Translations under genes and position numbers: made by a program
The notes under the pieces: generated by a model
The model's database searches: none
Told to the model about the DNA's origin: nothing
The model's input: the letters and a program-made list of their open reading frames with translations, nothing else
Shown here: positions 1 to 64,000 of the stretch, in pieces
Layout of the letters: each line of letters begins with the position of its first letter
How positions within the stretch are numbered: the stretch's first letter is position 1
Source: Polynucleobacter necessarius
GTDB lineage: Bacteria > Pseudomonadota > Gammaproteobacteria > Burkholderiales > Burkholderiaceae
Direction: 5' to 3'
Length of the DNA stretch: 64,000 nt
NCBI RefSeq assembly: GCF_900095175.1
Contig: NZ_LT606946.1
Coordinates: forward strand, 1,333,417-1,397,416

Positions 1-1092
1 ACGCGTCACTACTTCACGACGATGCTGCAAGAAGTATTCCAGCATTTGCTTCAGATTCAATAGGCGCGGCTGGTTATCTACCAGGGCCACCATATTCATA
101 CCGAAGTTATCTTGCAGTTGAGTGCTCTTGTACAAATTATTGAGAACTACTTCAGGCACCTCACCGCGCTTAAGCTCAATTACTACGCGCATACCTGACT
201 TATCAGACTCATCACGCAGATCAGAAATGCCTTCTACTTTTTTCTCATTCACCAACTCAGCAATACGTTCGAGCAAGTTCTTTTTATTCACCTGGTAAGG
301 CAACTCGTCAACAATGATGGCCTGACGAGCACCCTTATCAAGGTCTTCAAAGTGGATCTTGGCGCGCATCACGACACGGCCACGGCCAGTGCGATAGCCT
401 TCACGAACCCCTTGAACACCATAAATAATGCCGGCGGTCGGAAAATCCGGAGCAGGAATGATCTCAATGAGCTCATCAATCGTGCATTCTGGGTTGTGTA
501 ATACATGCAAACAGGCTGTAACCACCTCATCCAAGTTATGGGGAGGGATGTTGGTTGCCATGCCCACAGCGATGCCTGAACTGCCGTTAATCAGCAAATT
601 AGGCACTTTTGCAGGAAGAATTAAGGGTTCTTTCTCACTACCGTCGTAATTTGGCCCGAAATCCACGGTTTCCTTATCCAAATCGGCCAATAACTCATGG
701 GCGATCTTTCGAAGGCGGATCTCGGTATATCGCATCGCAGCAGCGTTATCGCCGTCTACAGAGCCAAAGTTACCCTGTCCGTCAACCAGCATATAGCGCA
801 GAGAGAAGTCCTGGGCCATACGAACAATGGTGTCATACACCGCAGAATCGCCATGTGGATGGTATTTACCGATCACATCGCCAACTATACGGGCAGATTT
901 TTTGTAAGCGCGGTTCCAATCGTTGTTTAATTCATACATAGCGAATAAAACACGTCTGTGGACCGGCTTAAGGCCGTCACGCACGTCTGGCAGGGCTCTG
1001 CCGACAATGACGCTCATTGCGTAGTCCAAATAGGACCGCCGCATTTCGTCTTCGAGGGATATTGGTAGTGTTTCTTTAGCGGCTTGTTCCAT
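1..1092 (-). CDS. gyrA: DNA gyrase subunit A, N-terminal part (3' end outside window)
   Basis: GyrA is the breakage-reunion subunit of DNA gyrase, which supercoils DNA with GyrB. The frame starts at the ATG at 1092 and stays open to base 1, giving 364 codons of a protein usually near 870-900 residues, so only the N-terminal catalytic domain is present. The start reads [20 protein letters not shown]. The quinolone-pocket motif [10 protein letters not shown] keeps the ordinary Ser and Asp of sensitive enzymes. The active-site tyrosine lies in AAMRYTEIR. The last visible residues, HRREVVTR, match the family. No lesion is visible. No strong Shine-Dalgarno is seen before the ATG. The gene is divergent from the OmpA-like gene across 159 bases. 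Confidence 0.97.
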
Positions 1093-1251
1093 TTAGAAAT
1101 AATATCATTTTGATGACTGATAGCCCCTATGCTAAGATTCCGTCAGTTTGTACGAAATTGAGATGTGTCGCTTTGCGGTTTTTGCTTCAGAGTAGGGCGA
1201 ATTACATTTAAGTTTGACTTTAATTAAAAAAGAGATTTTTGAGGACTAAAA

Positions 1252-1821
1252 ATGAACAAAACCCTAAAAGTGTTGTTAGCTTCTGTTGTTACTGTTTCTG
1301 CTTCTGCAGCAATGGCTTCTGATAACTGGGAAAACAGCGCTGGCTTGAATTGGAAAAACGGCGACGGCACATTGTGCTGGCGTGATAACAGCTGGACCCC
1401 TGCTACTGCAGCTCCTGGTTGCGATGGCTACCTGACTAAGAAAAAAGCATCAGGCGTAAGCCAAAGCAAGATCACCTTGCAAGCTGACACACTTTATGAC
1501 TTCAACAAGTCTGACTTGAAGCCAGAAGGTAAAGCTACTTTAGACAAAATCGCTGAAGACTTAAGCAAGATCAAATTAGAAGTAATTATTGCTGTTGGTA
1601 ACACTGATAGCGTTGGTACTGATGCTTACAACATGACTCTCGGCCAGCGTCGTGCTCAGTCCGTTAAAGCTTACTTAGTAAGCAAAGGTGTTGATGGTAG
1701 CCGTATTTACACAGAATCAAAAGGCAAGAGCAATCCAGTTGCATCAAATGCAACTGCTGAAGGCCGCGCTAAGAACCGCCGTACTGACATCGAAGTTGTT
1801 GGTACAGCTAAAGTTAAGTAA
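1252..1821 (+). CDS. OmpA-family outer membrane/peptidoglycan-binding protein
   Basis: This is a 189-residue envelope protein. Residues 1-22 form a Sec signal peptide (Lys near the start, a hydrophobic run, then an AMA-S cleavage region). A short linker with two cysteines precedes a C-terminal OmpA-like domain at about residues 75-185, with ADTLYDFNKSDLKPEG and a C-terminal NRRTDIEV motif that includes the conserved peptidoglycan-contacting Arg. The lack of an N-terminal beta-barrel makes it a small OmpA/Pal-like anchor rather than full OmpA. A GAGG ribosome-binding site lies about 7 bases before the ATG. Codon use is strongly biased (AAA, GCT, GGT), which suggests high expression. It is monocistronic, with a strong terminator directly after it. 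Confidence 0.92.
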   Translation: MNKTLKVLLASVVTVSASAAMASDNWENSAGLNWKNGDGTLCWRDNSWTPATAAPGCDGYLTKKKASGVSQSKITLQADTLYDFNKSDLKPEGKATLDKIAEDLSKIKLEVIIAVGNTDSVGTDAYNMTLGQRRAQSVKAYLVSKGVDGSRIYTESKGKSNPVASNATAEGRAKNRRTDIEVVGTAKVK

Positions 1822-1839
1822 TTCTTTTTACTTGTAAAA

Positions 1840-1864
1840 AAGCCCGGTTCTGCCGGGCTTTTTT
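1840..1864 (+). terminator. Rho-independent terminator of the OmpA-like gene
   Basis: The inverted repeat AAGCCCGG / CCGGGCTT (1840-1847 and 1853-1860) has a 5-base loop and is followed by a T run. It lies 18 bases after the OmpA-like stop codon. Confidence 0.9.
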
Positions 1865-5534: not shown

Positions 5535-5647
5535 AGGTGAATGTCTCTTATTTGGCACAATATTTTTATATCGCAAATATACTAAACTTTGCCTTAATTA
5601 ACCTTTTAAGCTTTAAAACTACAGCCAAAACAAATACAAGGACATCC

Positions 5648-6069
5648 ATGTCAACCATCCAACCCTTTCACCTTGCCTTTCCAGTTAATGACTTAGCGGC
5701 AGCGCGCAGTTTTTACGGCAATACCTTAGGCTGTCCAGAAGGGCGCAGTTCAGATGAATGGATCATTTTGATTTCTTTGGGCATCAACTCGTTGCTCATC
5801 TTGCCCCTGAAGAATCCGGCCATGCGAGCTCAAATGAGGTTGACGGACATCAAGTTCCAGTAAAACATTTTGGGGTTGTTCTCACGATGCCAGATTGGCA
5901 TGCATTGGCTGAAAAATTAACTCATAGCGGCATCAAATTCATCATCGAGCCGCAAATTCGCTTTAAAGGCAAAGTTGGTGAACAGGCCACCATGTTCTTT
6001 TTAGACTCTGCTGGCAATGCCCTGGAATTCAAAGCATTTGAAGATCCAAGCCAGCTATTTGCAAAATAA
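5648..6069 (+). pseudogene. VOC-family (glyoxalase/dioxygenase-like) protein, frameshifted
   Basis: The N-terminal part ([20 protein letters not shown], to about residue 39) and the C-terminal part ([18 protein letters not shown] to [17 protein letters not shown]) are halves of one vicinal-oxygen-chelate protein in different frames. After ...SSDEWI at 5764 the frame is off by one. Restoring a single G after ATC at 5764 gives [20 protein letters not shown], the expected family sequence with its metal-binding His. The lesion is therefore a 1-bp deletion. The upstream frame stops at about 5863. The original protein would be about 140 residues of unknown substrate. Confidence 0.85.
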
Positions 6070-8728: not shown

Positions 8729-9036
8729 TCAGTCGGATTTACCTACCAAAGTCATGTGCTCAACAAAAGGGTTTTTTGCAAAGAAAGGGCCAACAATGGC
8801 TCGCCAATCAGCAAATGCTGCCGACCCCCGAAAATCCACTGTGTGATTTTCCAAGCTATCCCAATAAATTAGATTAGTAATAAGTAACGCGCTGGGCTCT
8901 CAATAGTACGATTTACCTTAAATCCTCGAAACCCTTTAGCTTTGGAGATCACGGTATTGACGCCACGCAAAATGGCCTCTTCAAACTCGGCAGACTTACT
9001 AGGATCAATTTCTATATCGCAGTGTTCCAAAATCAT
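8729..9036 (-). pseudogene. Antibiotic-biosynthesis-monooxygenase-like small protein, broken by a 5-bp duplication
   Basis: The frame starts at the ATG at 9036 after AAAGGAA: MILEHCDIEIDPSKSAEFEE, then GFRGFKVNRTIESPARYLLLI and a stop. The remainder (YWDSLENHTVDFR ... HMTLVGKSD) continues in another frame to the stop at 8729-8731. The junction carries a perfect tandem repeat ATTAG-ATTAG at 8868-8877 on the plus strand. Removing one copy restores YLLLIYWDSLENHTVDF, the normal ABM-domain sequence. The lesion is therefore a 5-bp tandem duplication, which is hard to blame on base-calling. The intact protein would be about 100 residues, a dimeric haem/quinone-type monooxygenase fold of unknown substrate. 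Confidence 0.85.
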
Positions 9037-9111
9037 GGGTATTCCTTTATAAAAATCAATAAAGATAGATAGTAAACTCAAACAGCATAATTTAATAACG
9101 ATTCGAGAGAC

Positions 9112-10086: not shown

Positions 10087-10633
10087 TCATTCTTTGAAGA
10101 CACTTACCCCAACCGAATTATTCATTAGCTTCAGCAAAATCGGTATGTCTGGTTTTGGTGGCGTCCTGCCATGGGCACGACGCACACTAGTTGAGCAAGA
10201 CAAAATTCTCACATCTGAAGAATTCAGCTCCATCTTGGGTATTTGCCAGATTGTTCCTGGCCCAAATATTGTCAACCTAGCAGTGTGTATTGGCTCACGC
10301 TTTGGTGGAGCCAGGGATGCTTTTGCAGCAGTTGCAGGTCTAACACTAGGGCCAATTTGTATCGTCATGCTGCTGGCACTCTTGTATACCCACTATAGCT
10401 ATTTGGAATCGGCTCAAGGAGCACTCCGAGGAATATCTGCCGTTGGGGTTGGTTTAATCGCCTCTACTGGCATCAAGATGTTACGTGATGAGTTGCGCTT
10501 TCCGGCAATGCTCCTAGTGGTGCTTGTGACTGTAATTGCTGCCAGCTATTACCAGCTGGGTCTTGGCTGGGTGGTATTAATTGCATCACCACTTGCTTGG
10601 ATTTTGGCGCAAAAGAAAGCTCGCAAACTATGA
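10076..10633 (+). CDS. Chromate transporter, first half-size subunit (ChrA family)
   Basis: The 185-residue membrane protein of the CHR family begins at a TTG inside the end of the previous gene. It carries the family signature FSKIGMSGFGGVLPW and a CQIVPGPNIVNLA motif, followed by four or five hydrophobic helices. Short-chain CHR proteins work as a pair encoded by adjacent genes, one domain each. This subunit overlaps the second by ATGA at 10630. The reading frame is intact, but its partner is frameshifted, so it is probably useless on its own. Confidence 0.85.
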   Translation: MSLNHSLKTLTPTELFISFSKIGMSGFGGVLPWARRTLVEQDKILTSEEFSSILGICQIVPGPNIVNLAVCIGSRFGGARDAFAAVAGLTLGPICIVMLLALLYTHYSYLESAQGALRGISAVGVGLIASTGIKMLRDELRFPAMLLVVLVTVIAASYYQLGLGWVVLIASPLAWILAQKKARKL

Positions 10634-11095
10634 GTATTTTTCTAAGCCTGTTTCTCAAGCTATCGACTTTTTCGCTCATTGCCTTTGGCGGAGTAAATGC
10701 GCTACTTCCCAGCCTGCTCAATTTATCGGTTTACCAAGAGCATTGGATAGACCTTCAAACTTTTGCTGATTATTTTGCAATTGCTCAAGCCGCTCCAGGG
10801 CCGAACTTCATGACAGTCACACTGATTGGCTGGCATGTCTATGGAGTTTTAGGGGGGGCTGATTGCAACTATTGCTATTTCATGGCCCTCCTCTATCTTG
10901 GTGTATCACTTGCAGCGTCTTATCCTAAGAATGAGAGATGAGCACAAAAAGAAGTCTATTCAATATGCAGCGGCAGCTCTTGCCATTGGCTTAGTGCTTT
11001 CTTCGGCATGGCAAATTGCGCTACAAATTAATCACAGCTATGCGGCGTATGCACTCACACTCATCACCATTGGGGTTACTGCTTTTACTCGCTAG
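10630..11095 (+). pseudogene. Chromate transporter, second half-size subunit, frameshifted in a G7 tract
   Basis: From the ATG at 10630 the frame reads MSIFLSLFLKLSTFSLIAFG, with FAIAQAAPGPNFM, the second CHR signature. It then shifts at the run of seven G at 10852-10858. With six G the sequence continues GVLGGLIATIAISWPSS and joins the frame ending at 11095. The uncorrected frame stops at 10941. A single extra G is the only lesion seen. The C-terminal helices in the second frame are well conserved, so the change is recent. Confidence 0.85.
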
Positions 11096-11179
11096 CACCC
11101 TTTATATTTAATCGGGCTCGGTACAATCTTGGGCGCCATAGGGCTTGTTTAACCACCAGAATTAGCCCATTCGAAAAGC

Positions 11180-11558
11180 TTACTTCAGCGCCTGGTAGGT
11201 CAAAATACCCAAGAATGTTAAGGCGAGCGAGCCAAACAAATTTAAGAGTGCAGTACCTAGCGCCCACGTCATTTCACCGCGCTGCATAAAGCCGACAACA
11301 TCAGCAGAAAAACTAGAGAAAGTTGTGAGGCCGCCCAAGAACCCAGTAATGATGAATAACTTCCATTCAGGGGAAAGGCTGGGGTTATTGCCAAAAAAAG
11401 CTACCGCAATGCCAATTAAGTAACCACCAACCATATTAGAAATAAAAGTTCCCAAAGGAAGCGTCGCTGCAAGGCTCACTGTTGCAAGATTAAACCCCGC
11501 CCCTCAGCAAGGCTCCGAGACCAGCACCACAGAAGATTGCAAGAATAGATAGCCACAT
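11180..11558 (-). pseudogene. crcB: CrcB/Fluc fluoride channel, frameshifted
   Basis: CrcB proteins are small dual-topology fluoride exporters. The frame from the ATG at 11558 reads MWLSILAIFCGAGLGALLR and then hits a stop. Removing one base from the C4 run at 11500-11503 (plus strand) gives LLRAGFNLATVSLAATLPLG and joins the open frame with SNMVGGYLIG and FLGGLTTFSSFSAD, the family signatures. The full protein would be about 125 residues. It follows the dioxygenase gene by 9 bases on the same strand. Fluoride export by this gene is presumably lost. Confidence 0.88.
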
Positions 11559-13397: not shown

Positions 13398-13486
13398 ATA
13401 AACTCCAACTGCAAGGATCGGCATTCGAGAGTATGCTGAGCAGATAGAACCTCACCCCCATATTTAATGAAATGACTGGAGCCCTT

Positions 13487-13925
13487 ATGAAACTCAAGCA
13501 CCTTGTTTTAGCAACGCTTGCACCAACATTATTGGTAAGCGGAATCGCGTATGCGCAGTTCAAAAAACCAGAAGATGCCATTAAGTATCGCCAAAGTGTT
13601 TATACGGTGATGGCTAATTCTTTCGGAAAAATTGGCGCAGTAGTCAAGGGTGAAGCGCCATTTAATAAAGATGAGGTGACCAAGAATGCAGCGGTTGTTG
13701 CTATGCTCTCCACTTTGCCATGGCAAGCATTTGGTCCCGGCACTGAGGGCGGCAACGCACTTCCAGGCGTTTGGTCAGATAACGCTAAATTTAAAGCTGC
13801 CGGAGAAAAAATGCAGCTTGCCGTGGCGAACCTCAATACTGCAGCACAGTCAGGCGATCAAGAAGGCCTTTGGTGCAGCTGGTGCTACCTGCAAAGGTTG
13901 CCATGATGACTTTAAGAAAAAGTAA
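13487..13925 (+). pseudogene. Cytochrome c' (class II c-type cytochrome), broken near the haem motif
   Basis: The frame from the ATG at 13487 has a signal peptide (MKLKHLVLATLAPTLL ... AYA) and a four-helix cytochrome c' body, but after AAQSGDQE at about 13864 it misses the haem site and stops at 13906. The haem motif CKGCH and the end HDDFKKK lie in the +1 frame, stopping at 13925. The shift sits at GCGATCAAGAAGG (13854-13866). An 11-bp deletion between two GCGATCAAGAA copies would explain it and restore GDQEAIKKAFG, though other net changes of one frame are possible. It abuts the convergent b561 gene. Confidence 0.82.
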
Positions 13926-14605
13926 TCAGCCCTTGATGAAGTAAACCAGAATTAACGCGAGCAGGCTCAGCAGCAATAAAGCCAAGCCGCGTTGCAGTCC
14001 TCCATCCCTGGAGGCTTGACCCAAGTCAGATGGCAGATACTTTGCCTGCTCGCTTGGGTCAATTTCTTTATCACCCACTAGCATGGGTTTGATTAAATTC
14101 TCGCCTTTGAATTTTTGGTAATACACAATCGCACAAAGATGGAGTGCGATCAATATGATGAGGATGTTCTCATTGATGTGGTGAATTGAGGTTAGTAGCT
14201 GAACCGTATCATTCGAAACATATTTTGCAAACGGTCCCTCAAAAGCGATATCGTCATTTGCAAATAAACCAGTTACAGCCTGAAGGCCAACTGAAAAAAG
14301 TAAACCCAAAACGGATAAAGCGCCTAGAGGGTTATGACCAAGACCAGCCTTGGTTTTACCTAATAGGTAATCAATTAGCTCTTTAGGGCTTGGAACAAAA
14401 TAAATAAGCGAGCATGGTATGAACCAATCAAGCCCCAACAGAATCGAAAAATAATTAAGCTCAGAACGCAGTAACCGACTAGCGCATGGAACTCCATAGC
14501 ATTGCCGCCAATCTTGACGGTAATAAAGCTCAGAACAATGCAAATCACCAAAAGCCAATGAAACAGGCGAATCGGCAAATCCCATACACGAATGATTTTT
14601 TTCAT
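13926..14605 (-). pseudogene. Cytochrome b561 family protein, frameshifted
   Basis: From the ATG at 14605 the frame reads MKKIIRVWDLPIRLFHW, the first b561 helix with its haem His, then FHALVGY, and it goes wrong after GSYHAR. The rest (IYFVPSPKELIDYLLG, GHNPLGALSVLGLL, SIHHINENILI) lies in another frame up to the stop at 13926. Adding one T at 14406-14407 (AA on the plus strand) gives HARFIYFVPS. One 1-bp deletion is therefore enough. Membrane b561 proteins of this type commonly pair with cytochrome c', and here both are broken. Confidence 0.85.
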
Positions 14606-14643
14606 CTGTGCAGAATAAATCAATGCAGGCACCACCACCTGAT

Positions 14644-15668: not shown

Positions 15669-16604
15669 ATGATCCCAGTCAATTCAGTACTGCAGGTCGG
15701 ACAATTTCCTGAGGTAATGCAAGCGGTAATTGACCAGCGCATTACCCCAGTTCGATATCCAGACCTCAACTCCAGCATTCCGCCCGGCTCTTACGAGAGC
15801 ATTTTGATTCGCTCAAACACCCAGTTACCTGTCGAATTACTCGAGAAACTCCCCTAGTAAAGATGGTGGCTACTTGTGGGGTGGGCTACGACAACCTTCC
15901 ATTGGATTACCTCAAGGCGAAGGGAATCAAAGCCAGTAATACCCCAGGCGTTTTAAATGACGCTGTTTGTGAACTGGCGATCGGCATGATGTTTGGCTTA
16001 TTGCGTCGTATACCCCAAGCGCATGAATTTGTTAAAAGTGCAGCCTGGTCAAAAGGTTTATTTACGGTTACCACCACTCTTGCCGGCAAGAGCATCGGCA
16101 TTGCAGGAATGGGCCGCATCGGACAAGACCTGGCTAAGCGCCTAGAAGCATTCAATGTCAAGATTGCCTACACTGGCCCAAGCCGTAAGGAAGTCCCATA
16201 TGAGTACTTCCCCGATATTCAATCTTTAGCCAAGGCATCTGACGTCCTTTTTCTGGCCTGCCCTGTCACCCCAGAAACAGAAAAAATGATCGACGCTGAA
16301 GTCTTAGAGGCCTTAGGCTCTAAGGGCTACCTCATCAATATTGCACGCGGGAGTGTAGTGGATGAGGCTGCACTTTTAGTTGCACTGCAGCAAAAAGTCA
16401 TTGCTGGTGCAGCGTTCGATGTATTTGAAAATGAACCAAACCCAAACATCGGGTTTCTAAATCTTGATAATGTCCTATTAACACCGCATATTGGAAGCGC
16501 CACTTCTGAAACGCGACAATTGATGACAAATTTAGCAATAGATAATTTAGAAGCTTTCTATAATAAAAAATCACTTCTCACTTCTGACAGAAGTAAAAAA
16601 TTAA
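15669..16604 (+). pseudogene. D-2-hydroxyacid dehydrogenase (phosphoglycerate/glyoxylate reductase type), frameshifted
   Basis: The first frame starts at 15669 after GAGG (MIPVNSVLQVGQFPEV) and ends at 15857. The second carries MVATCGVGYDNLP, the NAD loop GIAGMGRIGQDLA, catalytic Arg in NIARGSVVDE, Glu in ENEPNPN and His in TPHIGSAT. Adding one C to the C4 run at 15851-15854 gives EKLPLVKMVATCGVGYDN and joins them. Near 16586 a second, 2-bp loss seems to carry the frame past its natural stop (16602-16604) to 16681, inside the next gene. It is the second gene of this family in the window, and the one that decayed. Confidence 0.82.
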
Positions 16605-44777: not shown

Positions 44778-45208
44778 TGTTTATTTCCATTTTTTTGAGC
44801 CTGCTCCAAAGCATGCTTGGCCTCTGGTGGCATGTAGTTCTCATCATGCTTAGCCAGCACTTCGCTAGCAACAAATTGTCCATCCGGATTTAGGTGACCT
44901 TGAATAACCGCACCCTTTCCTTCTTTAAATAAATCCGGAAGAATGCCTGTATAGGCAACAGGAATATCTTTCGCCATATCGGTAATCACAAAGTGGACAG
45001 TCAAACCATCTCGCTTGACTGATCCATCTTTGACCATACCGCCAATCCGAAAGACTTGACCAGCGGGTGACTTACCAGCAGCAACTTCGCTTGGGATGAC
45101 ATACAAAGCGATATTGCTATTTAGCGCATTCAAAATTAATACTGCCGCGATGCCAATCGCAATGAGTGCGCCAACAATAATGGCGGCCCGTTTATGTCTT
45201 GGTTTCAC
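44774..45208 (-). CDS. ccmE: Haem chaperone CcmE
   Basis: The 144-residue protein has an N-terminal helix at 8-27, an OB-fold periplasmic domain ([19 protein letters not shown]) and the covalent haem His in [13 protein letters not shown] near residue 125. It carries haem from CcmABCD to CcmF. It overlaps ccmD and ccmF by four bases. Intact. Confidence 0.94.
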
Positions 45209-45396
45209 TTGCCGCCCTTTTGATCAAACCATTCCGCCATCACTTCACGCTGAAATCTTCGCACAATAAGCTTGTGTCGCGCCCGAACAGCCAAGGGCTC
45301 AAGCAAGAGCACTAAGGCACAAACGCCAAAGCTACTCCATACATAGAGCGCATAACCCTCCATTGCAAAGAATTCAGCCGGACTATTCCACATCAA
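45205..45396 (-). CDS. ccmD: Haem exporter protein CcmD
   Basis: The 63-residue protein has one helix ([18 protein letters not shown]) followed by a basic region ([14 protein letters not shown]), the usual CcmD layout. It helps release haem-CcmE from CcmC. Four-base overlaps link it to ccmC and ccmE. Confidence 0.88.
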
Positions 45397-46163: not shown

Positions 46164-46825
46164 TCGATAGCAATCTTTACTGCAATAGCACTGACCCAGG
46201 GGATAAATGCTAATGCCAAAATCAATAAGGCGCCCAATAGGGAGAAATGTCCCGTGATATCAAGCCCTACGCTGCTGGCGTACACAGCACCAGCACCAAA
46301 AATCAATACAGGAATATACAGCGGCAGAATCAGCAGGCTCATTAAAACGCTGCCACCCCTTACCCCTAGAGTTAAAGCAGCTCCAATCGAACCCACTAAA
46401 GATAAAACTGGTGTCCCCAACAATAAAGATGCCATTAATACCTGCAAAGACTGAGCATCTAAATCAAACTGAATTCCAATCACCGGCGCCAGCAAGACCA
46501 AAGGCAGTCCGCATACCAACCAATGGGCAAGCACTTTGCCAAACACCGCTACTGTAAAGGAATTCGGGGACAAGGCCAATTGCTCTAGAGTGCCATCCGC
46601 GTAGTCAGCCGAGAACATCCGCTGCAAACCAAGTAATGTAGAAAGCAAGGCAGCAACCCAAATGACGCCGGGCGCAATTTTTCTTAGTAAAGCAGTATCA
46701 ACTCCGATTCCCAATGGGAACAGGCTGGTTACGATGACAAAGAAAAATAATGCAGTTAAGACCTCGCTCTTGCGACGCATCACTAGCAATAGATCACAAT
46801 GAACAATGGCTACAAAGTCGTTCAT
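46160..46825 (-). CDS. ccmB: Haem exporter ABC permease CcmB
   Basis: The 221-residue permease has six hydrophobic helices and family features such as FADYADGTLEQL (here SADYADGTLEQLAL). It pairs with CcmA to power release of haem-CcmE. It overlaps ccmA and ccmC by four bases. Intact. Confidence 0.93.
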   Translation of the reverse strand: MNDFVAIVHCDLLLVMRRKSEVLTALFFFVIVTSLFPLGIGVDTALLRKIAPGVIWVAALLSTLLGLQRMFSADYADGTLEQLALSPNSFTVAVFGKVLAHWLVCGLPLVLLAPVIGIQFDLDAQSLQVLMASLLLGTPVLSLVGSIGAALTLGVRGGSVLMSLLILPLYIPVLIFGAGAVYASSVGLDITGHFSLLGALLILALAFIPWVSAIAVKIAIE

Positions 46826-47469
46826 AGATCTAACACTCGCAGACCAGGAATAGATAGGGGTTGATGACTTGTGAGCACCACCAAACCATTGCGCTCAAGA
46901 TGATCTGCTATCAACCCTAGCAGCTCCTGGGCTGCATGAGTATCTAGGGCATTAAAAGGTTCATCCAAAATCCAAACTTGCGCCCGTCGCGTCACCATGC
47001 GAGCCATCAAGACACGCTTTTTTTGACCTGCAGACAAGCAATTGACAGGCAGATCTTCGCGTCCCTTCAGACCAAATCGCCATAGGGAGGCAAATGCATC
47101 TTGATCAGAAAGCAAGATGCCGTCAATCGCGGCATACATGCGCAAATTTTCAAGAGCGCTGAGATCTTCTTTCAAGGCATCGCGATGACCTAAAAATAAG
47201 AGCTTGCTGTGATACTCCGATGCCACTTCTTTGATGGAATGGCCATTCCATAAGATGCCACCAGACTCAGGGGAAGCTAAGCCGGTTAGTAAACGCAAAA
47301 GGCTGGTCTTACCAACCCCATTCTCACCCCGAATATGGAGGCACTGACCAGTAAGCAGCTGAAAATTCAATCCTGAAAACAACGTCCGCTCGCCTCGCAC
47401 GCAAGCAATCTCCCGAGCTTCAAGAGCTGTATTTGGAGATGCTGGGAAGGAAGAATAAGTGGCTGTCAT
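46822..47469 (-). CDS. ccmA: Haem exporter ABC ATPase CcmA
   Basis: The 215-residue ATPase has Walker A GENGVGKTSLLRLL, signature CLSAGQKKRV and Walker B VWILDEPFNAL. It is the first gene of the ccmABCDEFGH(I) unit. The 183 bases upstream hold no recognised element. Intact. Confidence 0.94.
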   Translation of the reverse strand: MTATYSSFPASPNTALEAREIACVRGERTLFSGLNFQLLTGQCLHIRGENGVGKTSLLRLLTGLASPESGGILWNGHSIKEVASEYHSKLLFLGHRDALKEDLSALENLRMYAAIDGILLSDQDAFASLWRFGLKGREDLPVNCLSAGQKKRVLMARMVTRRAQVWILDEPFNALDTHAAQELLGLIADHLERNGLVVLTSHQPLSIPGLRVLDL

Positions 47470-52810: not shown

Positions 52811-53085
52811 GATGCCGATTTTTGCTTGTACTGAGTTGCGCAGTAAGCGCGGTTTACCAATTTACTGCGTAGGGCGAGATGCTTAGTTGCTCTGCCAGTC
52901 ACCCTCTTACGCCACAATTCAAAGGAGTTGCGTTTCAGCTGCTTTCTCATCAAAGCAATCACTTGGGGCTCTGAATACCCAAAAGTAAGTTCGATAGCAT
53001 CAAAAGGCGTGCGATCCTCCCAGGCCATCTCAATCAACCTTGAGAGGTCCGCTTCTGAAAGCGTCTGGGGTAGTCGTGATGTCAT
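52807..53085 (-). CDS. TIGR03643/DUF2805-family protein
   Basis: The 92-residue basic protein LSRLIEMAWEDRTPFDAIEL ... FGYSEPQVIALMRKQLK has a helix-turn-helix-like N-terminal half and a basic tail (RKRVTGRATKHLALRSK). It matches the small TIGR03643 family often next to photolyases; DNA binding is plausible from charge. It is the first gene of the minus-strand unit, divergent from the SDR gene over 59 bases. Confidence 0.82.
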   Translation of the reverse strand: MTSRLPQTLSEADLSRLIEMAWEDRTPFDAIELTFGYSEPQVIALMRKQLKRNSFELWRKRVTGRATKHLALRSKLVNRAYCATQYKQKSAS

Positions 53086-53144
53086 CGAGCAAGTTTAAGA
53101 CTTATTCAATAAACTGGCTGAGACCTCCTTCAATTACCCTATTC

Positions 53145-53840
53145 ATGCCATTACTTCCAAATTCCTTCCGCGCACTCGTGATTGGCTCATCCGGAACCAT
53201 CGGCTCTGCCTTCATGGAATTGCTGGAACAGCATCCCGCATGCACGAAAGTAATAGGCATACATCGAAACTCTGCCAATCCGATTGATTACCAAGATCTC
53301 AACACCATTGAAGAGGCAGCAAAAGCTCTTTCAGGAGAGGCGCCTTTTCAGCTGATCATCAATACCATCGGCATATTGCACTCTCCTGATTGGATGCCAG
53401 AAAAGAAACTAGATGATCTCAATGCCGAGCAATTGCAGCTGTTGATGCAAATGAACGCCATTGGTCCTGGATTAACTATCAAGCACTTTTCTAAGTTACT
53501 GGATCCAGCCAACTCGGTTATGGCAACGCTCTCTGCAAAGGTTGGGAGCATTGAAGACAATCGTCTCGGCGGCTGGTATAGCTACCGCGCCTCTAAGGCA
53601 GCACTCAATATGCTGATCAAGACGGCATCGATTGAATTCTCCAGAACTAAACCCAACACTGCACTTGTGGCACTTCACCCGGGGACAGTGAATTCTCGCT
53701 TATCAAAACCGTTTAAGGGCGAGCAAATTGGTAGACCTCCTTTGGATGCCGCCAACGATATGTTGAATGTTCTTCTCTCGCTCAACAAAGAAGATTCTGG
53801 AAGCTTCATCACCTACTCTGGCGAGAGACTGCCTTGGTAG
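53145..53840 (+). CDS. SDR-family oxidoreductase of the photolyase island
   Basis: The 231-residue short-chain dehydrogenase-like protein starts at ATG 53145, where ALVIGSSGTIGSAFMELL gives the nucleotide loop. The upstream in-frame starts lack family similarity. Catalytic Tyr-Lys are in WYSYRASKAALNM, with Ser in TLSAKVGS. It is of the C-factor (CsgA)-like type. No clear ribosome-binding site is seen. It is divergent from the TIGR03643 gene and followed by the DUF2237 gene. Intact. Confidence 0.83.
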   Translation: MPLLPNSFRALVIGSSGTIGSAFMELLEQHPACTKVIGIHRNSANPIDYQDLNTIEEAAKALSGEAPFQLIINTIGILHSPDWMPEKKLDDLNAEQLQLLMQMNAIGPGLTIKHFSKLLDPANSVMATLSAKVGSIEDNRLGGWYSYRASKAALNMLIKTASIEFSRTKPNTALVALHPGTVNSRLSKPFKGEQIGRPPLDAANDMLNVLLSLNKEDSGSFITYSGERLPW

Positions 53841-53879
53841 GCAGCTCCCTTATTTAACTCCCCATCACGGAAAATATTT

Positions 53880-54260
53880 ATGCAACACGATGCATCTTTG
53901 AATGTTTTAGGCCAACCACTGGTTCCCTGTTCTTTTGATCCTTTGACGGGATTTTTTCGAGATAGTTGCTGCAAAACCAATGAACAAGATCTCGGCAGTC
54001 ATTTGGCCTGCGCAATCGTTAGCAATGACTTTTTGCAATTTAGCCTGAAGCGCGGCAACGATCTGATTACTCCAAGACCGGAGTACCAGTTTCCAGGGCT
54101 CATTGCAGGTGATCAGTGGTGCCTATGCCTCAATCGCTGGATCGAAGCTCTGGAAGCTAACTGCGCGCCAATGATTAAGCTAGAGAGCACCCACATCAAA
54201 GCTTTAGAGAAAGTCTCTCTAGAAGTGCTCGAGCAATATGCGGCAGTGGAACAGCTATAA
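53880..54260 (+). CDS. DUF2237-family protein
   Basis: The 126-residue protein has NVLGQPLVPCSFDPLTGFFR, then GSHLACAIVSNDFLQFSLKRGNDL and a GDQWCLCLNRWIEAL motif, the full DUF2237 pattern. Function is unknown; it is conserved in cyanobacteria and proteobacteria, often near photolyase genes. It follows the SDR gene by 39 bases and converges with the broken photolyase gene. Intact. Confidence 0.88.
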   Translation: MQHDASLNVLGQPLVPCSFDPLTGFFRDSCCKTNEQDLGSHLACAIVSNDFLQFSLKRGNDLITPRPEYQFPGLIAGDQWCLCLNRWIEALEANCAPMIKLESTHIKALEKVSLEVLEQYAAVEQL

Positions 54261-54267: not shown

Positions 54268-55521
54268 CTAAGACGAGAGCCAAAGCTTGCGGTAGATTTC
54301 TTTTGGATCGTGATCCTGAGTTTGCTTGGCCACATTGAAAGGTCTACCACCTCTAGGGTCAGTGCCGCGCCCAGCGATATAGAGCCAATTACCTTGATTG
54401 CTGTAAACGTCATAGTCTATTAATTGAGACTCAAACCATGCAGCACCTGCACGCCAGTCACCCTGCATGTCAGATATCCAGTAACTAGCCACAATCTGAC
54501 GCATCCGATTGGAGAGGTAGCCACTCTGATGCAGCTCGCGCATCCCTGCGTCCACTAAAGGAGTGCCGGTGTTGCCTGTGCGCCACTGCTCAAAGCTGGG
54601 CGCATAGGATGGCTTTACGGGCACACCAGTTAAACCACTGGCGCGATATAACTTCTGACCGTACTTAAAGTGAATAAAGCGGAAATAATCTCTCCACAGT
54701 AATTCAAACCAAAGCCAATAAGTACCATCATTAGCACCATAGCGATTTTCATAATCGCTTAATTGCGCCGCAATATCCCGCGCTGAAATACAACCTAAGG
54801 CAAGCCATGCTGAAAACTTACTGGAGTAATCCATACCAATCAGTTGATTGCGAGTCTCCTTATAGCTATCAGGCAAACGCCGCTCTAGATATTGCTTCAA
54901 ATGGGTCTGGGCATGACTAGCCCCTCCCACAAAATACGGATGTGAAGCTGATTGAGTGCTAGAAGGTGCTACTGAGCGCTGAGGCAAAGACCCTGGTAGC
55001 AAAGGAATCTTCTTGGGCGCATTGATGGGCTGTGCAAACTTGAGCCCTGCCCGCTCGACCTCACGTCTAAATGCCGTAAATACATCGGGCATGTTTTCTA
55101 AAGCAAATGGCAAGTCTTGTGACTCCAACATACTCGATTGCCAGAACTCCTGAACCTCAACTCCCTGCTCTTGCAAAATTCGTACTTGCTCTATTTCTTC
55201 AGGTGCTTCAATTTGCTCGCAATAAATTGCTGTTGCAGCAGTATCCTGAACTAGCCGCAACAATATCTCTGTCGACTTGCCAGCCAACTCGAATAGATCT
55301 GATCCCTGGGCTTGTAGCTGAGCCTTTAGGTCATCGAATGCGGCTGGCAAGAAGGCTTTTCGATGCAGCCCTTGTCACTCAAAACCATAAACCATGTCTT
55401 GCTCTTTGGAATCATGGATGTACACCAGCAAAAGAGAATCCGCATTTAAGCAAGCTTGTGCAAATGCTGGGTTATCTGCCAATCGCAAGTCATTTCGAAA
55501 CCAGTAAATTAAGGTGCGCAT
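54268..55521 (-). pseudogene. DASH-type cryptochrome/photolyase, broken by one nonsense codon
   Basis: From ATG 55521 the frame reads MRTLIYWFRNDLRLADNPAF to VYGFE, then TGA at 55375-55377, then QGLHRKAFLPAAFDDL in the same frame to the stop at 54268. Homologues have Arg or a similar residue at the stop position, so CGA to TGA (C to T) is the simplest change. The rest is intact, with SAWLALGCISARDI, WFELLWRDYFRF and GRGTDPRGGRPFN, the DASH FAD-domain marks. A restart at 55350 would lack the first part of the antenna domain. The start lies 3 bases after the DUF2256 stop. Confidence 0.88.
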
Positions 55522-55524
55522 CGA

Positions 55525-55704
55525 TTACACCTCAGCCTTACTGCCGGACTTTTTGGAGCGGCAGGCATCAGAGCAATATTTGACCTCATCCCAATTTTTG
55601 GCCCACGACTTACGCCACGTCATCTCCTTGCCGCAGACCAGGCAGGTCTTACTGGGCAAAAATGATTTATTCCCCTTAAAACCTGCTTTTTCAGATCGAG
55701 CCAT
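55525..55704 (-). CDS. DUF2256-family small zinc-ribbon-like protein
   Basis: The 59-residue protein MARSEKAGFKGNKSFLPSKT has two Cys pairs in CLVCGKEMTWRKSW and YCSDACRSKK, a likely metal ribbon. This family is typically encoded beside photolyase or cryptochrome genes, as here, with 3 bases to the photolyase start. Intact; function unknown. Confidence 0.88.
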   Translation of the reverse strand: MARSEKAGFKGNKSFLPSKTCLVCGKEMTWRKSWAKNWDEVKYCSDACRSKKSGSKAEV

Positions 55705-55769
55705 GCCTACCTATAGAAATCGAATAGACTATTCAACACAATTAAAAGTCAAATGAAAACAAGATTGCT

Positions 55770-56564
55770 TTGAAAGCTTTTTATACCGACCACTATGTTT
55801 TACCACTTCCACTGGGACACCGCTTTCCGATGGAAAAGTACAGCCAGCTGCGCGACCTAGTTGCACAACTAGAGGGCATCGAGCTCGTAGAGGCACCTGC
55901 TGTTACCGATACACAAATTCTGTATGCACACGACCCTAGCTATCTCATGAAAGTGATTGCGGGGGATTTAAGCACGAAGGAGCAACAGGAGATTGGTTTT
56001 CCTTGGAGCGAAAAAATGGTGGAGCGATCACGTCGCTCTGCTGGTGCTACTGTGGCAGCGGCAAAGGCGGCGCTAGATGAAGGTTTGGCGGCAAATCTAG
56101 CGGGCGGCACCCACCACGCCTATCGGAATATGGGTAGTGGATTTTGCGTATTTAATGACTCCGCGATTGCAGTGAGAGTCTTACAAAAAGAAGTGAGCTC
56201 AACACTGAAAGTAGCCATCGTCGATTTAGATGTACATCAAGGAAATGGCACAGCATCTATTCTTCAACATGACAAATCCATCTTCACGCTATCGATTCAT
56301 GGTGAAAATAATTTCCCATTTACTAAAGAGCAGAGTGATCTAGATATTGGCCTGCCCAATGGATGTGAAGATGAGGATTACCTCAAAGCTTTAGATCAGG
56401 GATTAGAGATGCTAGATACATTTAAACCTGACTTCATCATTTATCTAGCTGGTGCAGATCCCCATGAAGGGGATAGGCTAGGAAAGTTAAATATCAGCAA
56501 AGCGGGCATGCTGTCCATCAATAGATGGTTAGCAAAAACTGATCGATCGCATCCGCATTCTTAA
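55770..56564 (+). pseudogene. Histone-deacetylase-superfamily protein, 3'-truncated
   Basis: From TTG 55770, 247 residues match the family: GGTHHAYRNMGSGFCVFND holds the His-His pair, VAIVDLDVHQGNGT and YLAGADPHEGDRLG hold the zinc ligands. After ISKAGML (about 56511) the sequence departs from the family and ends in SINRWLAKTD... The last 50-60 residues, with the GGY catalytic loop, are missing. The alien tail is the antisense of the SYLF gene's end, so a deletion has joined two convergent genes. Members deacetylate acetoin-enzyme or polyamine substrates. Confidence 0.82.
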
Positions 56565-56917
56565 AGAGAATAATTTGATATTGATATTGATCTTGATATC
56601 CCGCACCAATGCCCTCACCGGTTTTCATGGCTTGCATAAAAATAGGTTCTGGACGGCACTTATCAAATAAAGCACCCTCACCCCCTAGCTAGTACTAATA
56701 AGACTACATTGACATTAGTAGTGCTAAAGACCGCATATCCTGGAGCGGTCTCTATATCTTTCTTAATCGCAGGGTTTTGCTTAATGAGAGCAGCCAAACC
56801 CACCTTAGACATTTCGAGTGTTGCCTCTCTTTTCTGCGCAATCTCTTGAGCAGTTAAAGGCTTTCCATCGGCACCTGTCGACTGGCAGCCAGATAGCATC
56901 ACCAAGCTAAATGCCAT
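56518..56917 (-). pseudogene. SYLF (YSC84)-domain lipoprotein, frameshifted and 3'-truncated
   Basis: The frame from 56917 has the lipoprotein motif VMLSGCQS, then GYAVFSTTNVNVVLLVLARG and a stop. Removing one base from the C5 run at 56681-56685 restores ARGEGALFDKCRPEPIFMQ, MKTGEGIGAGYQDQ, and QIILFKNADAIDQF, matching the SYLF fold. The frame then stops at 56518-56520, about 80 residues short. The signal peptide is also very short, with a stop upstream, so the 5' end may be damaged too. The 3' end overlaps the HDAC remnant at a deletion junction. Confidence 0.8.
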
Positions 56918-57000
56918 GCATAAGGCTGGAGATCCTTAATTTATAGACCTTATATCAGTTTTATAAAAGATATAGAAATGCACATTAAAATCGCCAGACT

Positions 57001-57881
57001 ATGTTTAGGATTAAAAATCTCCTCATGCTAATGGCTTTTGGGCCAGGTTTAGCTTGGGCGATCGATTTACAGCCGAACGATATTGTTGCCCCTGCACCCA
57101 ATAAAAACTACTTAACTTTGAGTTACATCAATTCAGAGAACACCACTCAATACAGAAACGGCTCCGCGCTACCTGGCAATCCAGTGATTGGTACGCAAAG
57201 CGCAATTTTGCGTGGCTCTCGCACCTTCAATATCGGTGACTTGCCTGCAGTCAGTTATCTACAGTTACCTTATGGAGCGATCAGTCCCGCCGGATCTTTT
57301 GCGAGCGCACCTGGCGATACCGGCATTGGCGACCTCAGCTTTGCTACAGCGATCTGGCCCTATGCCAATAAAAGCACCAGAACCTATTTGGGAATAGCTG
57401 GATATCTCATTACTCCAACAGGAAGCTACTCCAGCCAGAGAGCCTTTAATCTTGGTGAAAACCGTTTTCGAACAGACTTGCAGATCGGTTTTCAGACTCC
57501 AATCACTTCAAACGTCGATGGCATGATTGCCGTAGATACGATGTGGTTTGGTGGGAATAGTCAGTGTGGAGCAGCTTGCGGACTCAGTACCAACGGCGCT
57601 CCTTAAGCCAAAAACCTCTCACCACCACACAGCTTGGCCCAATCTATCGTATCAACCAAATCTTTACTGTTGGTGCCTCCTATTTTTATGTAGCAGGAGG
57701 CGCAACCTCAATTAATAACAGCTATCAAAATAATGTGGTGAACACCTAAAGATTTTTGCTAAGCGGTCAGGCGCACACACCTATTGGAAGATTCTCCCTG
57801 CAATACGGCAGAGATATGGAAATCAAAAATGGGTTTGTGCAGACTCGAGTACTCGCAATAAGACTCGCGAAAGAGTTTTAA
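57001..57881 (+). pseudogene. Phenol-degradation MetA-type outer-membrane transporter, broken
   Basis: A signal peptide (MFRIKNLLMLMAFGPGLAWA) leads a beta-barrel-like protein with YLTLSYINSENTTQYRNG and DTGIGDLSFATAIWPYAN, as in the MetA-pathway/Phenol_MetA_deg family. The frame stops at 57606. One missing base at CC 57601-57602 shifts it; the next frame (LSQKPLTTTQLGPIYRI) then meets TAA at 57747-57749 within VVNT*RFLLSGQAHTP, one C-to-T step from CAA. The true end is the TAA at 57879-57881 after RLAKEF. It carries two independent lesions and is about 293 codons when repaired. Confidence 0.85.
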
Positions 57882-57883: not shown

Positions 57884-58710
57884 CTATCTTGTGGGTGGTA
57901 ATGGGGAGCCGCAAGAAGAGCAATAGTGATCCTCAAGGCCATATCCATCGCGCATACAAATTAAACAGGCACGATCACCATTTGCTCGATGCGCCCTTTT
58001 TGTATAAGACATTTCTGCTGTAACAATTCCGGTGGGTGCTGCTAGAGTTCCCCAGCCCATTAGCATCATGAGCAAGGCAATTAACTTACCCAAATCTGTT
58101 TGTGGGGTGATGTCACCAAAACCTACCGTGGTCATTGTGGTGATCGCCCAATAGATCGAAACCGGGATGCTCGTATAGCCATGAGCTGGGCCCTCAACCA
58201 CATACATCAATGTTCCCATCACCATCACCACCATGAGAACAACAGATAGAAAGACCAAAATTTTTCTTCTGCTAGCTGCCATCGCATCAGCTAGATGCTG
58301 ATATTCAGACATGTATTGAGTCAGCTTAAAGATTCGGAAGACCCTAATGAGGCGCAAAATTCTGACATCAATTAAGGCGTGCAACTCTGGGAAGATTAAA
58401 GCTAAATATGTTGGCACGACAGCAAGAAGATCGATGATGCCAAAAAACTGGTGATGTATTTAATACGATTCGGGGCAGAGTAGATTCTGACAAGACATTC
58501 CACCGTAAAGAGTCCCGTAAATACCCACTCAAGAAACGAGAGCTCTGTATGGAAGTTTTTCGATACCGACTCGATGCTATCCAATACCACCACAAATAGG
58601 GAGAGTAGTATGGCAAAAATTAATACCTGGTCAAATCGAAGACCTAAAGGTGTGCTCGTCTCAAAGACAATTATTCTCAGCTTTTCTTTGAAGGAAATTT
58701 GTCTAGGCAT
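57884..58710 (-). pseudogene. Voltage-gated-type K+ channel with C-terminal zinc ribbon, frameshifted
   Basis: The first frame from ATG 58710 covers S1-S3-like helices (FDQVLIFAILLSLFVVVLDS). The second has the S4-like RILRLIRVFRIFKL with spaced Arg, the pore filter TMTTVGFGDITP and S6, then a CLIC ... CSSC ribbon. Adding one T in the A6 run at 58442-58447 gives ITSFFGIIDLLAVVPTYLA and joins them. Repaired length is about 276 residues. It is followed, after the stop at 57884, by the MetA remnant converging from the left. Confidence 0.86.
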
Positions 58711-60880: not shown

Positions 60881-62674
60881 CTAGTTTAGGGGTCTGGGTT
60901 TCTTAGTTTCTGAAACGGGAATCACCTTGCCACCCAAGATAGTTGCGAGAACAGAAACATTTTTAATATTGTTCACAGGAATTGTCTGCGGGTCAGAGTC
61001 AAGGATAGCGAAGTCAGCAAACTTACCAGTCTCAATAGTCCCAACTTTGTCTTCTACCCCTAGGGTGTAGGCGGCATTAATCGTAATCATCTTCATGGCG
61101 TCTGATGCCGTGACAGCTTCAGCGGGAGCCCAGACTTTGCCGTTGTTATAGACATCCTTACGAGTAACTGCTGTCCAAGCCTCTTTTAAAGGGGCAGGCG
61201 CCGATACCGGTGCATCAGAGCGAATAGAGGTCACGATGCCACTTTTAACTAAAGTGCCCAATCTTGTTGCATAAGATGCACGATCCATTCCAAGGGCCGG
61301 GTATTCCAAATTGGCGCGCTCAGAAATATAGGACATATTGGCACTCACAACCGCACCAAGCGCCTTAATCTTCATCACCATTGCTGTCGTTGGAATTCCA
61401 AAATGATTGATGGTGTAACGATGGTCAAAGCGGGGTTTTGCATCAATCATGAGTTGCAAAGCATTGATGGAGTGCTGGTTACCAATATCTCCATTGCTAT
61501 GGATATGAATGTGGAAACCGGCGTCCCACCATGGCCTCATGGTGTTAGCAAACTCTTGTGATGACTTGAAATTAGAAGAGCCTAAGGTGCCATTGGTATA
61601 GCCTGGGTGCTCCATGCGCATCGTCTCTGGAAGATAACCCCCCATCGCTATAAAACTTCACACCTTGAAAAATGAGGCGATCGTTATCTTGTTGCTTTAA
61701 ATTCTGAGCTTCAGCAATGGCCTTATCTCCATACTTCTGAATAAATGGCTCTGCATAAACCACTGGGACAAGACGTAATGCAGTATTGGGAGATTGGGTA
61801 TATGCCTTGGAAATCTTGGTTTCCATGTCAATATTCATAGTGCCAAATGCCAAATCTCCCGATGTCGTAATGCCAGCCTGCTGCATCAAGTCATTGATAT
61901 ACATAAAATCATTTGGAATCTCATGTGGCTTCAGAATATCTTTCCCTGCAACTTTGAGAATGTATTGCATTGCTGCAATCTCTAAAAATTGTCCATTTAA
62001 CTGACCATCTTTATCTAAACCCACACCTTTGATATTTTTTACCTGATCTGGTGTGATTCCGTAGGACTTAATAAATGCACTATTAACGTACATATCATGG
62101 CCGGAGATATCCCACACAATAATCGGCCTTGTTGTTGATGCTTGGTCTAAAAGCTGGCGATCAGGCTGCTTTCCCATTGACACCGCGTCATACCCCCAGG
62201 TCAGCAGAGTCTCATTGGGGTCCTTGATAGGATCCGAATACTTCTTTAACTGCGCCATTGCAGCCGGCAGGGTTGGCACACCAGGAAACGGTGCACCCCA
62301 TGGATTGGGCATTGGAGATGATGTTAGTAGTGGCTTATTAAATAGAATGCCCGCTAGCAAAGGATGAGCATGTGGCTCAATAAATCCTGGATACATTACT
62401 TTGTTTGCGAATTGGCGGTCAATTTTTGTTGGGTATTTATCTGTCCAAGGCTTCATATCTTCCAATGAGCCCACCGACAGAATACGGCCATCAGCTATAG
62501 CAACTGCAGTGGCATTTGGAATCGCAGGATCCATCGTCACAATTTTCTTAGCCACAAAGACAGTTACTTCAGAAACCTTGGGGGTTGATGGCGGATCAAT
62601 CAGTTGAACAGCAGAAGCCATTCCTGAAACAAGCCCCAGTGCACATAAATAAATAATTTTGATTTTAGATTCAT
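60881..62674 (-). pseudogene. YtcJ-like amidohydrolase, two frameshifts
   Basis: Repaired, this is an exported metal-dependent amidohydrolase of about 597 residues. EPHAHPLLAGI is the His-x-His metal site near residue 100, KFYSDGG follows, and the C-terminal half has IHIHSNGDIGNQ and SIRSDAPVSAP. The signal-peptide frame from ATG 62674 is one base short at the T4 run 62657-62660 (adding one gives KSKIIYLCALGLVSGMASA). The body shifts at an extra base in the C6 run 61638-61643, which removes DGGYLPETM. It has a second paralogue just upstream. Confidence 0.84.
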
Positions 62675-62730
62675 AAGAACTCCATCAGCCTCTTCATCTC
62701 AGATGAAATAAATTCTCATTAATTTGAGCA

Positions 62731-62764
62731 AAAAGAAACACCCGCATCAGCGAGTGTTTCTTTT
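62731..62764 (-). terminator. Terminator of the second amidohydrolase gene
   Basis: A long stem AAAGAAACAC-C-CGC / GCG-A-GTGTTTCTTT with one mismatch and a 4-base loop, and a T run on the minus strand. It follows the stop at 62786. Confidence 0.85.
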
Positions 62765-62785
62765 ACAAACTGTATTGATTAGGAC

Positions 62786-64000
62786 TTACTTAAGACTCAC
62801 CCGCTTACCATCAACCCAAGTTGCCTTGACTTTGATATTACGAATTTCTGCAGGTGGTGTCTTACGTGGATTCTTCTCCAATATCACCAAGTCAGCCCGC
62901 TTGCCGACTTCTAGGCTACCAACAAGATTGTCAGCAAAGATTTGATATGCGGCATCGATCGTAATCGCACGAATCGCATCATCAACCGAAACGGCTTGGG
63001 TTGATCCAAGCACTTTCTGCGGAGGCAGTTGCCATAAGCGTGTTACTTCTTCGCTCACATAGTTCAAGGGGCCAACATTAGAAACTGGCGAGTCACTATG
63101 CAGCGTAAATTTACCGCCCGCACGCTTAAAGTCTCCTGCCGGATCGATACGCTCAGCGCGCTCAGACCCAATAATATGGTTATTAAACGCTGCGCCCCAG
63201 TAATCAACGTGGCCGATAGTAAAGCTTGGTATCACACCCAATTTGACTGCTTTTGTAACGTGATCTGGATGATTGACCGTGAAATGCTCAATACGCAAAC
63301 GACGCTCTTGCGGCTTAGGATTACCCGCCAATAATTTAGCGTAGCTATTCAGAGCCTGATCAATTGCCTTTCACCATTGGAGTGAGAAGAAATTTGCCAG
63401 CCTTGATCAAAGTATGACTTCATAGATGCATAAATATCAGCATCCTTATAGTTGAGTGAGCCACTCCATTTACTATCTTTGGGATAGCTATACGGCTGAT
63501 TGAGTGCCGCAGTTAAACCCTGAGTAGAGCCGTCGGTAATATATTTAATACCGATGAAGCGTAACTTATCGTCCCCCTCATTCGGCTTAATAGCCTTATA
63601 CCCAGGCGGCAAAGTCTCGCTGAATAAGTATCCACGAACTCGAATCGGTGATGCATTCTTTGCAAAAATAGCTTTATAAATAGCTACTTCTTTATCAACA
63701 CCAAAATTACCACCAACACTCATATCGGAGACTGTTGTTACTCCAGTGGATGCCATTTTCTTCATGGTGCCTTCAATAGCAGCAAACAATTGCTCTTCTG
63801 TTGGGTTTGGCATTTTGGTCATAAATGGCAAATAAGTTGGTGGCTCCACTAACTTGCCAGTGAGCTGACCCTTTACATCTTTCACATAAATACCGCCGCC
63901 AGCAGGATTTGGAGTTTTGCTTGTAATACCGGCAAGCTCTAAAGCCTTGTGATTAACGTAGCCGATATGTCCAGATTGATTGACGATAAAAATGGGGACG
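62786..64000 (-). pseudogene. YtcJ-like amidohydrolase (second paralogue), frameshifted, 5' end outside window
   Basis: The frame is open from base 64000 (VPIFIVNQSGHIGYVNHKAL) through KYITDGSTQGLTAAL and WQISSHSNG to a stop at 63349. The rest (AIDQALNSYAKLLAGNP to FTLHSDSPVSNV and a stop at 62786) is in another frame. Adding one C at 63367-63368 gives SNGERAIDQALNSY and joins them. The conserved HSNG and SDSPV metal-ligand motifs remain. It is about 40% complete or more in this window; the N-terminal metal site lies outside. Confidence 0.84.

Follow-up and report, generated by a model that had tools for sequence, protein, structure and literature searches.

Are the many broken genes in one region of a Polynucleobacter genome real, and if so, what let them break? 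The region, which we call the window, is a stretch of 64,000 nucleotides (bases 1,333,417-1,397,416) of a single 1,907,709-base contig. An initial annotation made from its sequence had counted about 20 of 77 recognisable genes as broken and had read this as early genome reduction under relaxed selection in a host-bound lineage. Our comparison with related genomes indicates that the lesions are probably real and recent pseudogenes, in a genome on which selection has recently weakened throughout, with drift fixing the mutations and a move to host restriction as the likeliest cause.

We compared the studied genome (G000) with three relatives of unstated lifestyle: G104, a metagenome-assembled genome (MAG) titled Polynucleobacter sp. 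GWA2_45_21, and the single-contig genomes G134 and G132. Syntenic 74-kb stretches of all three cover almost all of the window in aligned blocks with 85-95% nucleotide identity, ~60.2-62.7 kb of the window being absent from G104. For example, over the P-type ATPase gene (33,994-36,432), identity is 93% to G104, 92% to G134 and 90% to G132. The genus first assigned to this DNA is borne out, as the nearest named record is Polynucleobacter sp. GWA2_45_21, in a comparison that drew on 186 genomes of the genus. A place in cluster PnecC would agree with the absence of mutS, which PnecC genomes also lack (available text of PMC5644125), and with high similarity to Polynucleobacter strains. We mapped the open reading frames (ORFs) of the relatives onto the window and aligned each gene separately, which gave 73 comparison genes, 66 of them with a counterpart in all three relatives. 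A lesion was called own-specific where a frameshift, stop or truncating deletion occurred only in the studied genome. Such lesions were found in 22 of these 66 genes, leaving 44 without; when genes with two or three relatives are counted, 23 of 71 are lesioned, by 36 events, and the initial count of about 20 was therefore a fair one. Some of the 22 are mild, one being altered at its last base only and another at its start only. In addition, a histidine phosphatase-superfamily gene that the relatives possess has been deleted here, at 53,839/53,896. By a stricter measure, in which a gene is severely broken if its longest open piece is below 80% of the G134 protein and falls into a milder class at 80-90%, 13 of 65 window genes are severe and six more are mild. 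Because the gene set was drawn from ORFs that are open in the relatives, a reverse control was required, and this gave 3 severe cases in 69 genes with two more at 80-90%; all three (near 1,338,953, 1,344,013 and 1,347,342) overlap damaged genes of the studied genome itself, so the control is an upper bound. Alignment of the broken genes to Polynucleobacter relatives, which had been proposed as a check, places the lesions in the studied genome and finds the copies in G104, G134 and G132 open, and the names taken from those open copies agree with the earlier description of the broken set as transport, channels, redox accessories and catabolism.

The breakage extends well beyond the window. Across eight areas covering 724 of 1,908 kb (38%), 53 of 522 genes are severely shortened, compared with 10 of 542 in the reverse control (left out were 431 genes without a counterpart, 2 partial and 7 at an edge, and 170, 2 and 9, respectively, in the control). 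The severe breaks number 10 of 157 genes at 1-200 kb, 1 of 9 at 300-380 kb (where few G134 genes have a counterpart and so only nine are comparable), 5 of 43 at 640-700 kb, 5 of 65 at 900-980 kb, 12 of 58 at 1173-1253 kb, 1 of 73 at 1253-1333 kb, 13 of 65 in the window and 6 of 52 at 1397-1477 kb. Pseudogene density is patchy, the area with a single break in 73 genes (1253001-1333000) lying directly beside the window and beside the other dense area (1173001-1253000). Names were assigned to 20 of the 40 genes that are severely broken elsewhere than in the window, for the most part the longest; they include bioA, a pabB-type fusion (aminodeoxychorismate), malic enzyme, aat and fumarase, and further an iron-sulfur gene of succinate dehydrogenase/fumarate reductase (one iron-sulfur paralogue is intact, at 947,605), transporters, a sensor kinase and an efflux protein of the outer membrane. 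We dropped a lenient, pairwise scan for lesions (115 of 525 genes versus 67 of 546 in the control) in favour of the single-ORF measure, because alignment jitter, start-codon differences and fragments of the genome's own broken genes inflate both sides; that scan also reported a stop in the first codons of polA, the true start of which possibly lies further in.

Changes in the window were polarised by agreement of the three relatives. On the branch leading to the studied genome, replacement over silent changes (Nd/Sd) amount to 107/303 in the broken genes and 154/587 in the intact genes, whilst the relatives show 0.13-0.19 in both classes (the counts for the relatives exclude three genes of G134 and four of G132 that have at least 60 private silent changes and are apparently replaced alleles). 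Over all genes, the odds ratios against G104, G134 and G132 are 2.0, 1.9 and 1.5 (P = 1e-9, 1e-6 and 3e-4), a replacement-to-silent ratio 1.5-2 times that of the relatives, intact genes included. Genes of the broken set are constrained in the relatives like the intact ones (P = 0.29 in G104, 0.90 in G134 and 0.91 in G132), and the relaxation therefore belongs to the lineage of the studied genome. Its silent changes in the window (890) match those of G104 (907) and so give no sign of a raised mutation rate. On a model in which the broken genes at first kept the constraint of the relatives and later became neutral, they look neutral for 5% of the branch (95% range 2.6-8.4%). In a wider set of 330 of 335 genes (5 dropped), ranked by constraint according to changes private to either G134 or G132, lesion events tend to fall in genes under less constraint (P = 0.018): going from the quartile under most constraint to that under least, there are 0.21, 0.11, 0.36 and 0.31 events per kb. 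Polarity is poorer in this set, in which hit genes of the studied genome have an Nd/Sd of 0.258 and unhit ones 0.207, compared with 0.16-0.19 in the relatives; in its window part, where replaced alleles were retained, G134 exceeds the studied genome (0.274 versus 0.251). The earlier proposal of relaxed selection and recent decay is thus supported by genes intact in three relatives, by an Nd/Sd raised above theirs and by lesions across the genome.

We suggest that purifying selection has become weaker throughout the genome of this lineage, and only a short time ago. The lesions would be products of ordinary mutation, chiefly small indels and nonsense changes, in a clade that lacks mutS/mutL mismatch repair, and drift would have fixed them because the affected genes are no longer important. 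The likeliest cause, unproven, would be a recent shift to a life restricted to a host, like that of the Euplotes symbionts in this genus, and on this analysis host-bound life is plausible. Several results weigh against parts of this reading. The comparison of non-synonymous to synonymous change (dN/dS) between intact and broken genes, advised at the outset, found the branch of the studied genome raised in both classes, but the classes differ from each other weakly (P = 0.047), and with the genome's own intact genes as baseline the neutral share is 2.7% (-1.1 to 6.4%), not clearly above zero. In the wider set, being hit or unhit is uncorrelated with constraint (rho 0.04, P = 0.44), 15 of 83 genes in the most constrained quartile are lesioned, and core genes (ccmI, ftsI) are among those damaged across the genome. 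There is no shift in GC-to-AT bias, at 1.26 versus 1.13, 1.21 and 1.24 in the relatives. Against host restriction in particular stand a GC content close to that of the relatives, an ORF coverage of 84-92% versus 88-95% in G134 that is only slightly lower, in six of the eight areas, and a genome size of 1.91 Mb, beside 1.93, 2.0 and 2.1 Mb in the three nearest relatives, 1.56 Mb in P. necessarius STIR1, which carries a large number of pseudogenes (available part of PMC5018217), and 1.7-1.8 Mb in endosymbiotic strains (available parts of PMC5018217 and PMC11253213). Because of this size we do not class the genome as P. necessarius, though it works alike.

A free-living lineage could also have come under relaxed selection, through a small population or a changed habitat and with no symbiosis involved. 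The near-normal size, GC content and ORF coverage suit such a lineage, as do several own-specific inserts with cargo genes and a nearest named record that is a MAG, GWA2_45_21, whose name we take to suggest a groundwater origin. However, Nd/Sd is raised in intact genes too, and broken bioA, pabB, malic enzyme and ftsI-type genes are a better fit to host dependence; moreover, those members of the genus that carry pseudogenes in strong numbers live as symbionts of ciliates in the available texts of PMC4285135, PMC11253213 and PMC5018217. We therefore regard a free-living explanation as unlikely, while giving it real weight.

It is far harder to accept that sequencing or assembly errors scattered indels and substitutions over a normal genome. 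Many lesions are single-base and some sit in short runs, a normally essential ftsI-type gene is among the broken ones, and the contig start (1-4462) carries single N positions at 213, 1883, 2433 and 2711 as well as a nearly perfect direct repeat of 257 bases within a porin-like gene, together perhaps an assembly join. Within the window, placement is compatible with chance: 23 genes are lesioned versus 26.8 expected (P = 0.06, not clearly different), and the 15 longest genes carry 15 events versus 14.5 expected, so that long window genes are not spared. The initial annotation had argued against random error from about 25 consecutive kb without lesions, which is wrong as stated, the longest gaps being 12.4 kb (41.4-53.8 kb) and 10.3 kb (26.2-36.5 kb). 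When 36 events are placed at random, the largest gap has P = 0.0145 and the two largest jointly P = 0.0012, but with one event per gene these become 0.15 and 0.04, and we rejected clustering within the window as proof against error, since it is weak evidence. The case stands on other observations. Long-read errors are mostly homopolymer indels, with few stops expected, whereas of the 84 frame-changing indels listed for the sample's severely broken genes (a few of them, in pairs, reflect alignment jitter) 71 lie outside runs of five or more bases and 13 within; these genes also show 26 first in-frame stops. The window alignments with the relatives hold tandem changes of 5, 7 and 11 bases and deletions of about 185, 340 and 600 bases in the studied genome, and silent divergence is not inflated. 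Over the sampled 522 genes (80-90% class counted), those of at least 600 amino acids (aa) are lesioned in 4 of 34 cases versus 10.5 expected from length (P = 0.0098), and those below 200 aa in 22 of 133 versus 9.4. The ten longest intact genes outside the window (nrdA, ileS, polA, valS, secA, aceE, leuS, alaS, rne and clpB) were chosen as intact and so illustrate this without testing it. Judged from the assembled sequence alone, error is an unlikely source of the lesions.

A mutator lineage, in which a raised mutation rate and not weaker selection broke the genes, is rejected as barely credible: the mutS domain is absent and many indels look slippage-like, but that domain is absent from all 23 genomes of the genus searched, including G104, G134 and G132, which keep their genes open (it was present in 11 of 14 controls), mutS and mutL are both missing from all 20 PnecC genomes in the available text of PMC5644125, and the silent count matches that of G104.

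The initial statement that the core stays intact holds for the most part, failing for a ccmI-type gene in the window and for ftsI outside it. The ftsI/penA-type gene (590 aa, contig 42399-44172) carries an insertion of one base roughly two thirds of the way along and exists as a single copy; the best NCBIfam matches of the septal transpeptidase are PBP2/PenA and FtsI, under their curated cut-offs. It lies among MraZ-, MraW-, Mur ligase-, MraY-type, FtsW-, MurG-, FtsZ- and LpxC-family genes, and the cluster members at 40.7-63.1 kb other than ftsI have full-length open counterparts in the studied genome. Its other transpeptidase genes (644 and 781 aa) are open, and ftsI is whole in the three relatives. 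Matches to ftsI occur in 183 of 186 genomes of the genus and, among the matches listed, are in two pieces in four: the studied genome and the drafts G088, G111 and G211 (150-290 contigs), the listed piece in G088 starting at a contig end. The frameshift may be an error, and would be surprising if real. Polynucleobacter is the genus named for long, multinucleoid symbionts, and the P. necessarius type lives obligately within Euplotes. Were the sole ftsI/penA-type gene truly frameshifted and the lineage dividing with a disabled or poorly expressed FtsI, which we think improbable, then loss or throttling of FtsI could directly cause the filamentous, multinucleoid form and host dependence.

Recent decay of this kind has close parallels. 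STIR1 is described as undergoing pseudogene-based decay without mobile elements in the available part of PMC4285135, drift is named as the driver in symbiotic Polynucleobacter (PMC11253213, in part), and unusual 16S rRNA mutations are noted in P. necessarius-type symbionts (PMC5018217, in part). The studied genome resembles the Euplotes symbionts of the genus, STIR1 among them, in its many pseudogenes, lack of mobile-element build-up and raised dN/dS, yet it is larger and its decay looks younger. It likewise resembles Sodalis pierantonius and Serratia symbiotica, which combine many recent pseudogenes with a still-large genome (PMC4285135, in part), but unlike Sodalis pierantonius it shows no build-up of insertion sequences, with no repeats of at least 300 bases in the 724-kb sample; one Y1 transposase, the only transposase family searched, was found in the genome. 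'Candidatus Nebulobacter yamunensis', another Euplotes symbiont, has a near-normal genome with 191 predicted pseudogenes and a broken biotin gene, but belongs to a different lineage and has 79 of its pseudogenes in common with a free-living relative (available text of PMC9837558), whereas here the copies of the relatives are open. The pattern is already published for P. necessarius, and the studied genome looks like an early case of it. It seems to capture an early step of erosion, with widespread gene breakage, a core that is mostly open, and a size and composition that have yet to move. Such a pattern has been seen before in bacteria that recently became restricted to a host, and the stage reached here looks very early. 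As its broken genes appear neutral for only ~5% of the branch, the genome could show which functions are lost first, and whether small indels precede deletions.

The features of the window are collected in the table below. The intact set first described stands for gyrA (cut by the window edge), the UbiG-like methyltransferase, the Gph-like HAD hydrolase, the transfer-messenger RNA, the cbb3 locus and the CcmA/B/C/E/F-like and redoxin genes, and an ilvD-type dehydratase is also open, yet next to the open ccm genes their cluster ends in a split ccmI-type gene. That gene has a match in 134 of 145 genus genomes of at least 90% completeness and two matches in seven genomes (G000, G074, G101, G114, G115, G175 and G217); among the closer copies, splits into large parts occur only in G000, G217 (single-contig) and the draft G175 (two contigs). 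Many relatives are reported with in-frame stops in ccmI, which may lie inside a 5' extension of the query.

Table. Genes, loci and deletion site of the window, in window coordinates, with their state in the studied genome.
Feature	Position	Strand	State
Glyoxalase/dioxygenase-superfamily gene	5537..6069	+	1-base deletion; open in G104, G134, G132
ABM monooxygenase-like gene	8729..9081	-	5-base tandem duplication
Chromate transporter half-gene	10597..11152	+	1-base insertion and stop; partner half 10076-10633 open
crcB fluoride exporter	11180..11558	-	1-base insertion
Cytochrome c' gene	13472..13925	+	11-base deletion of tandem copy
Cytochrome b561 gene	13926..14623	-	1-base deletion
D-2-hydroxyacid dehydrogenase	15669..16604	+	1-base deletion, 7-base tandem duplication
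Mandelate racemase/muconate lactonizing-type dehydratase (enolase superfamily)	20683..21722	-	5' end gone in ~185-base deletion
SulP/DauA-type anion transporter	25245..26885	+	three 1-base insertions and stop
cbb3 oxidase locus (FixG-, FixP-, FixO-, COX1-, P-type ATPase-like genes)	28950..36432	-	open
MFS transporter	36443..37684	-	2-base and 1-base deletions; late stop
2OG-Fe dioxygenase	37690..38444	-	1-base deletion
NMT1-like (TAXI-type) binding protein	38474..39801	-	2-base insertion
ccmI/cycH-type cytochrome c biogenesis gene	40659..41985	-	2-base deletion and stop
ccm cluster (redoxin, CcmF, CcmE, CcmC-like, CcmB, ABC ATPase)	42340..47469	-	open
Short-chain dehydrogenase	53040..53839	+	last base gone at edge of next deletion; mild
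Deletion site, ~600 bases; histidine phosphatase-superfamily gene there in relatives	53839..53899	.	gene absent
DUF2237 gene	53899..54260	+	start region gone
Photolyase/cryptochrome-family gene	54268..55521	-	one premature stop, codon 49 of 417
Small gene without Pfam match	55514..55773	+	1-base deletion
Histone deacetylase-like gene	55770..56511	+	3' end deleted
Gene without Pfam match	56512..56929	-	two 1-base insertions, 3' end deleted
MetA-pathway-like gene	57001..57881	+	2-base duplication and stop
Ion channel gene (Ion_trans)	57884..58710	-	1-base deletion
Amidohydrolase gene	60891..62674	-	three frame-changing events; two relatives compared only
Amidohydrolase gene, cut by window edge	62786..63999	-	1-base deletion

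Within the window, 49764-57881 is a run of stress- or light-related-looking genes, half of it open (photolyase-related DPRP, DUF3833, chalcone isomerase-like) and the other half broken or deleted (dehydrogenase, phosphatase, DUF2237, photolyase-family and histone deacetylase-like genes and their neighbours). A total loss of light protection was rejected, as a second photolyase-family gene (131,261) and the photolyase-related gene (49,764) are open. In-frame stops were also reported for the photolyase-family gene in other genomes, and in the sole case inspected, G133, the stop was the terminal one. Outside the window, the own-specific inserts at 136043-141504 and 157762-177633 hold ORFs that by eye, from their translations, look like glycosyltransferases, toxin-antitoxin genes and recombinases; insertion sequences were rejected as the source of such inserts, since the 13 stretches examined have no copies elsewhere in the part of the sample compared with them, and repeats of at least 300 bases were not found in the 724-kb sample. 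At 6069-6107 of the window, a TonB-dependent receptor gene and its neighbour (~3 kb) are present in G104 and G134 and absent from the studied genome and G132. Lastly, G134 at 17573-20606 and G132 at 28455-33672 carry divergent alleles of conserved genes (~74-84% identity, versus >90% for the nearest relative), which look like allele replacement by recombination.

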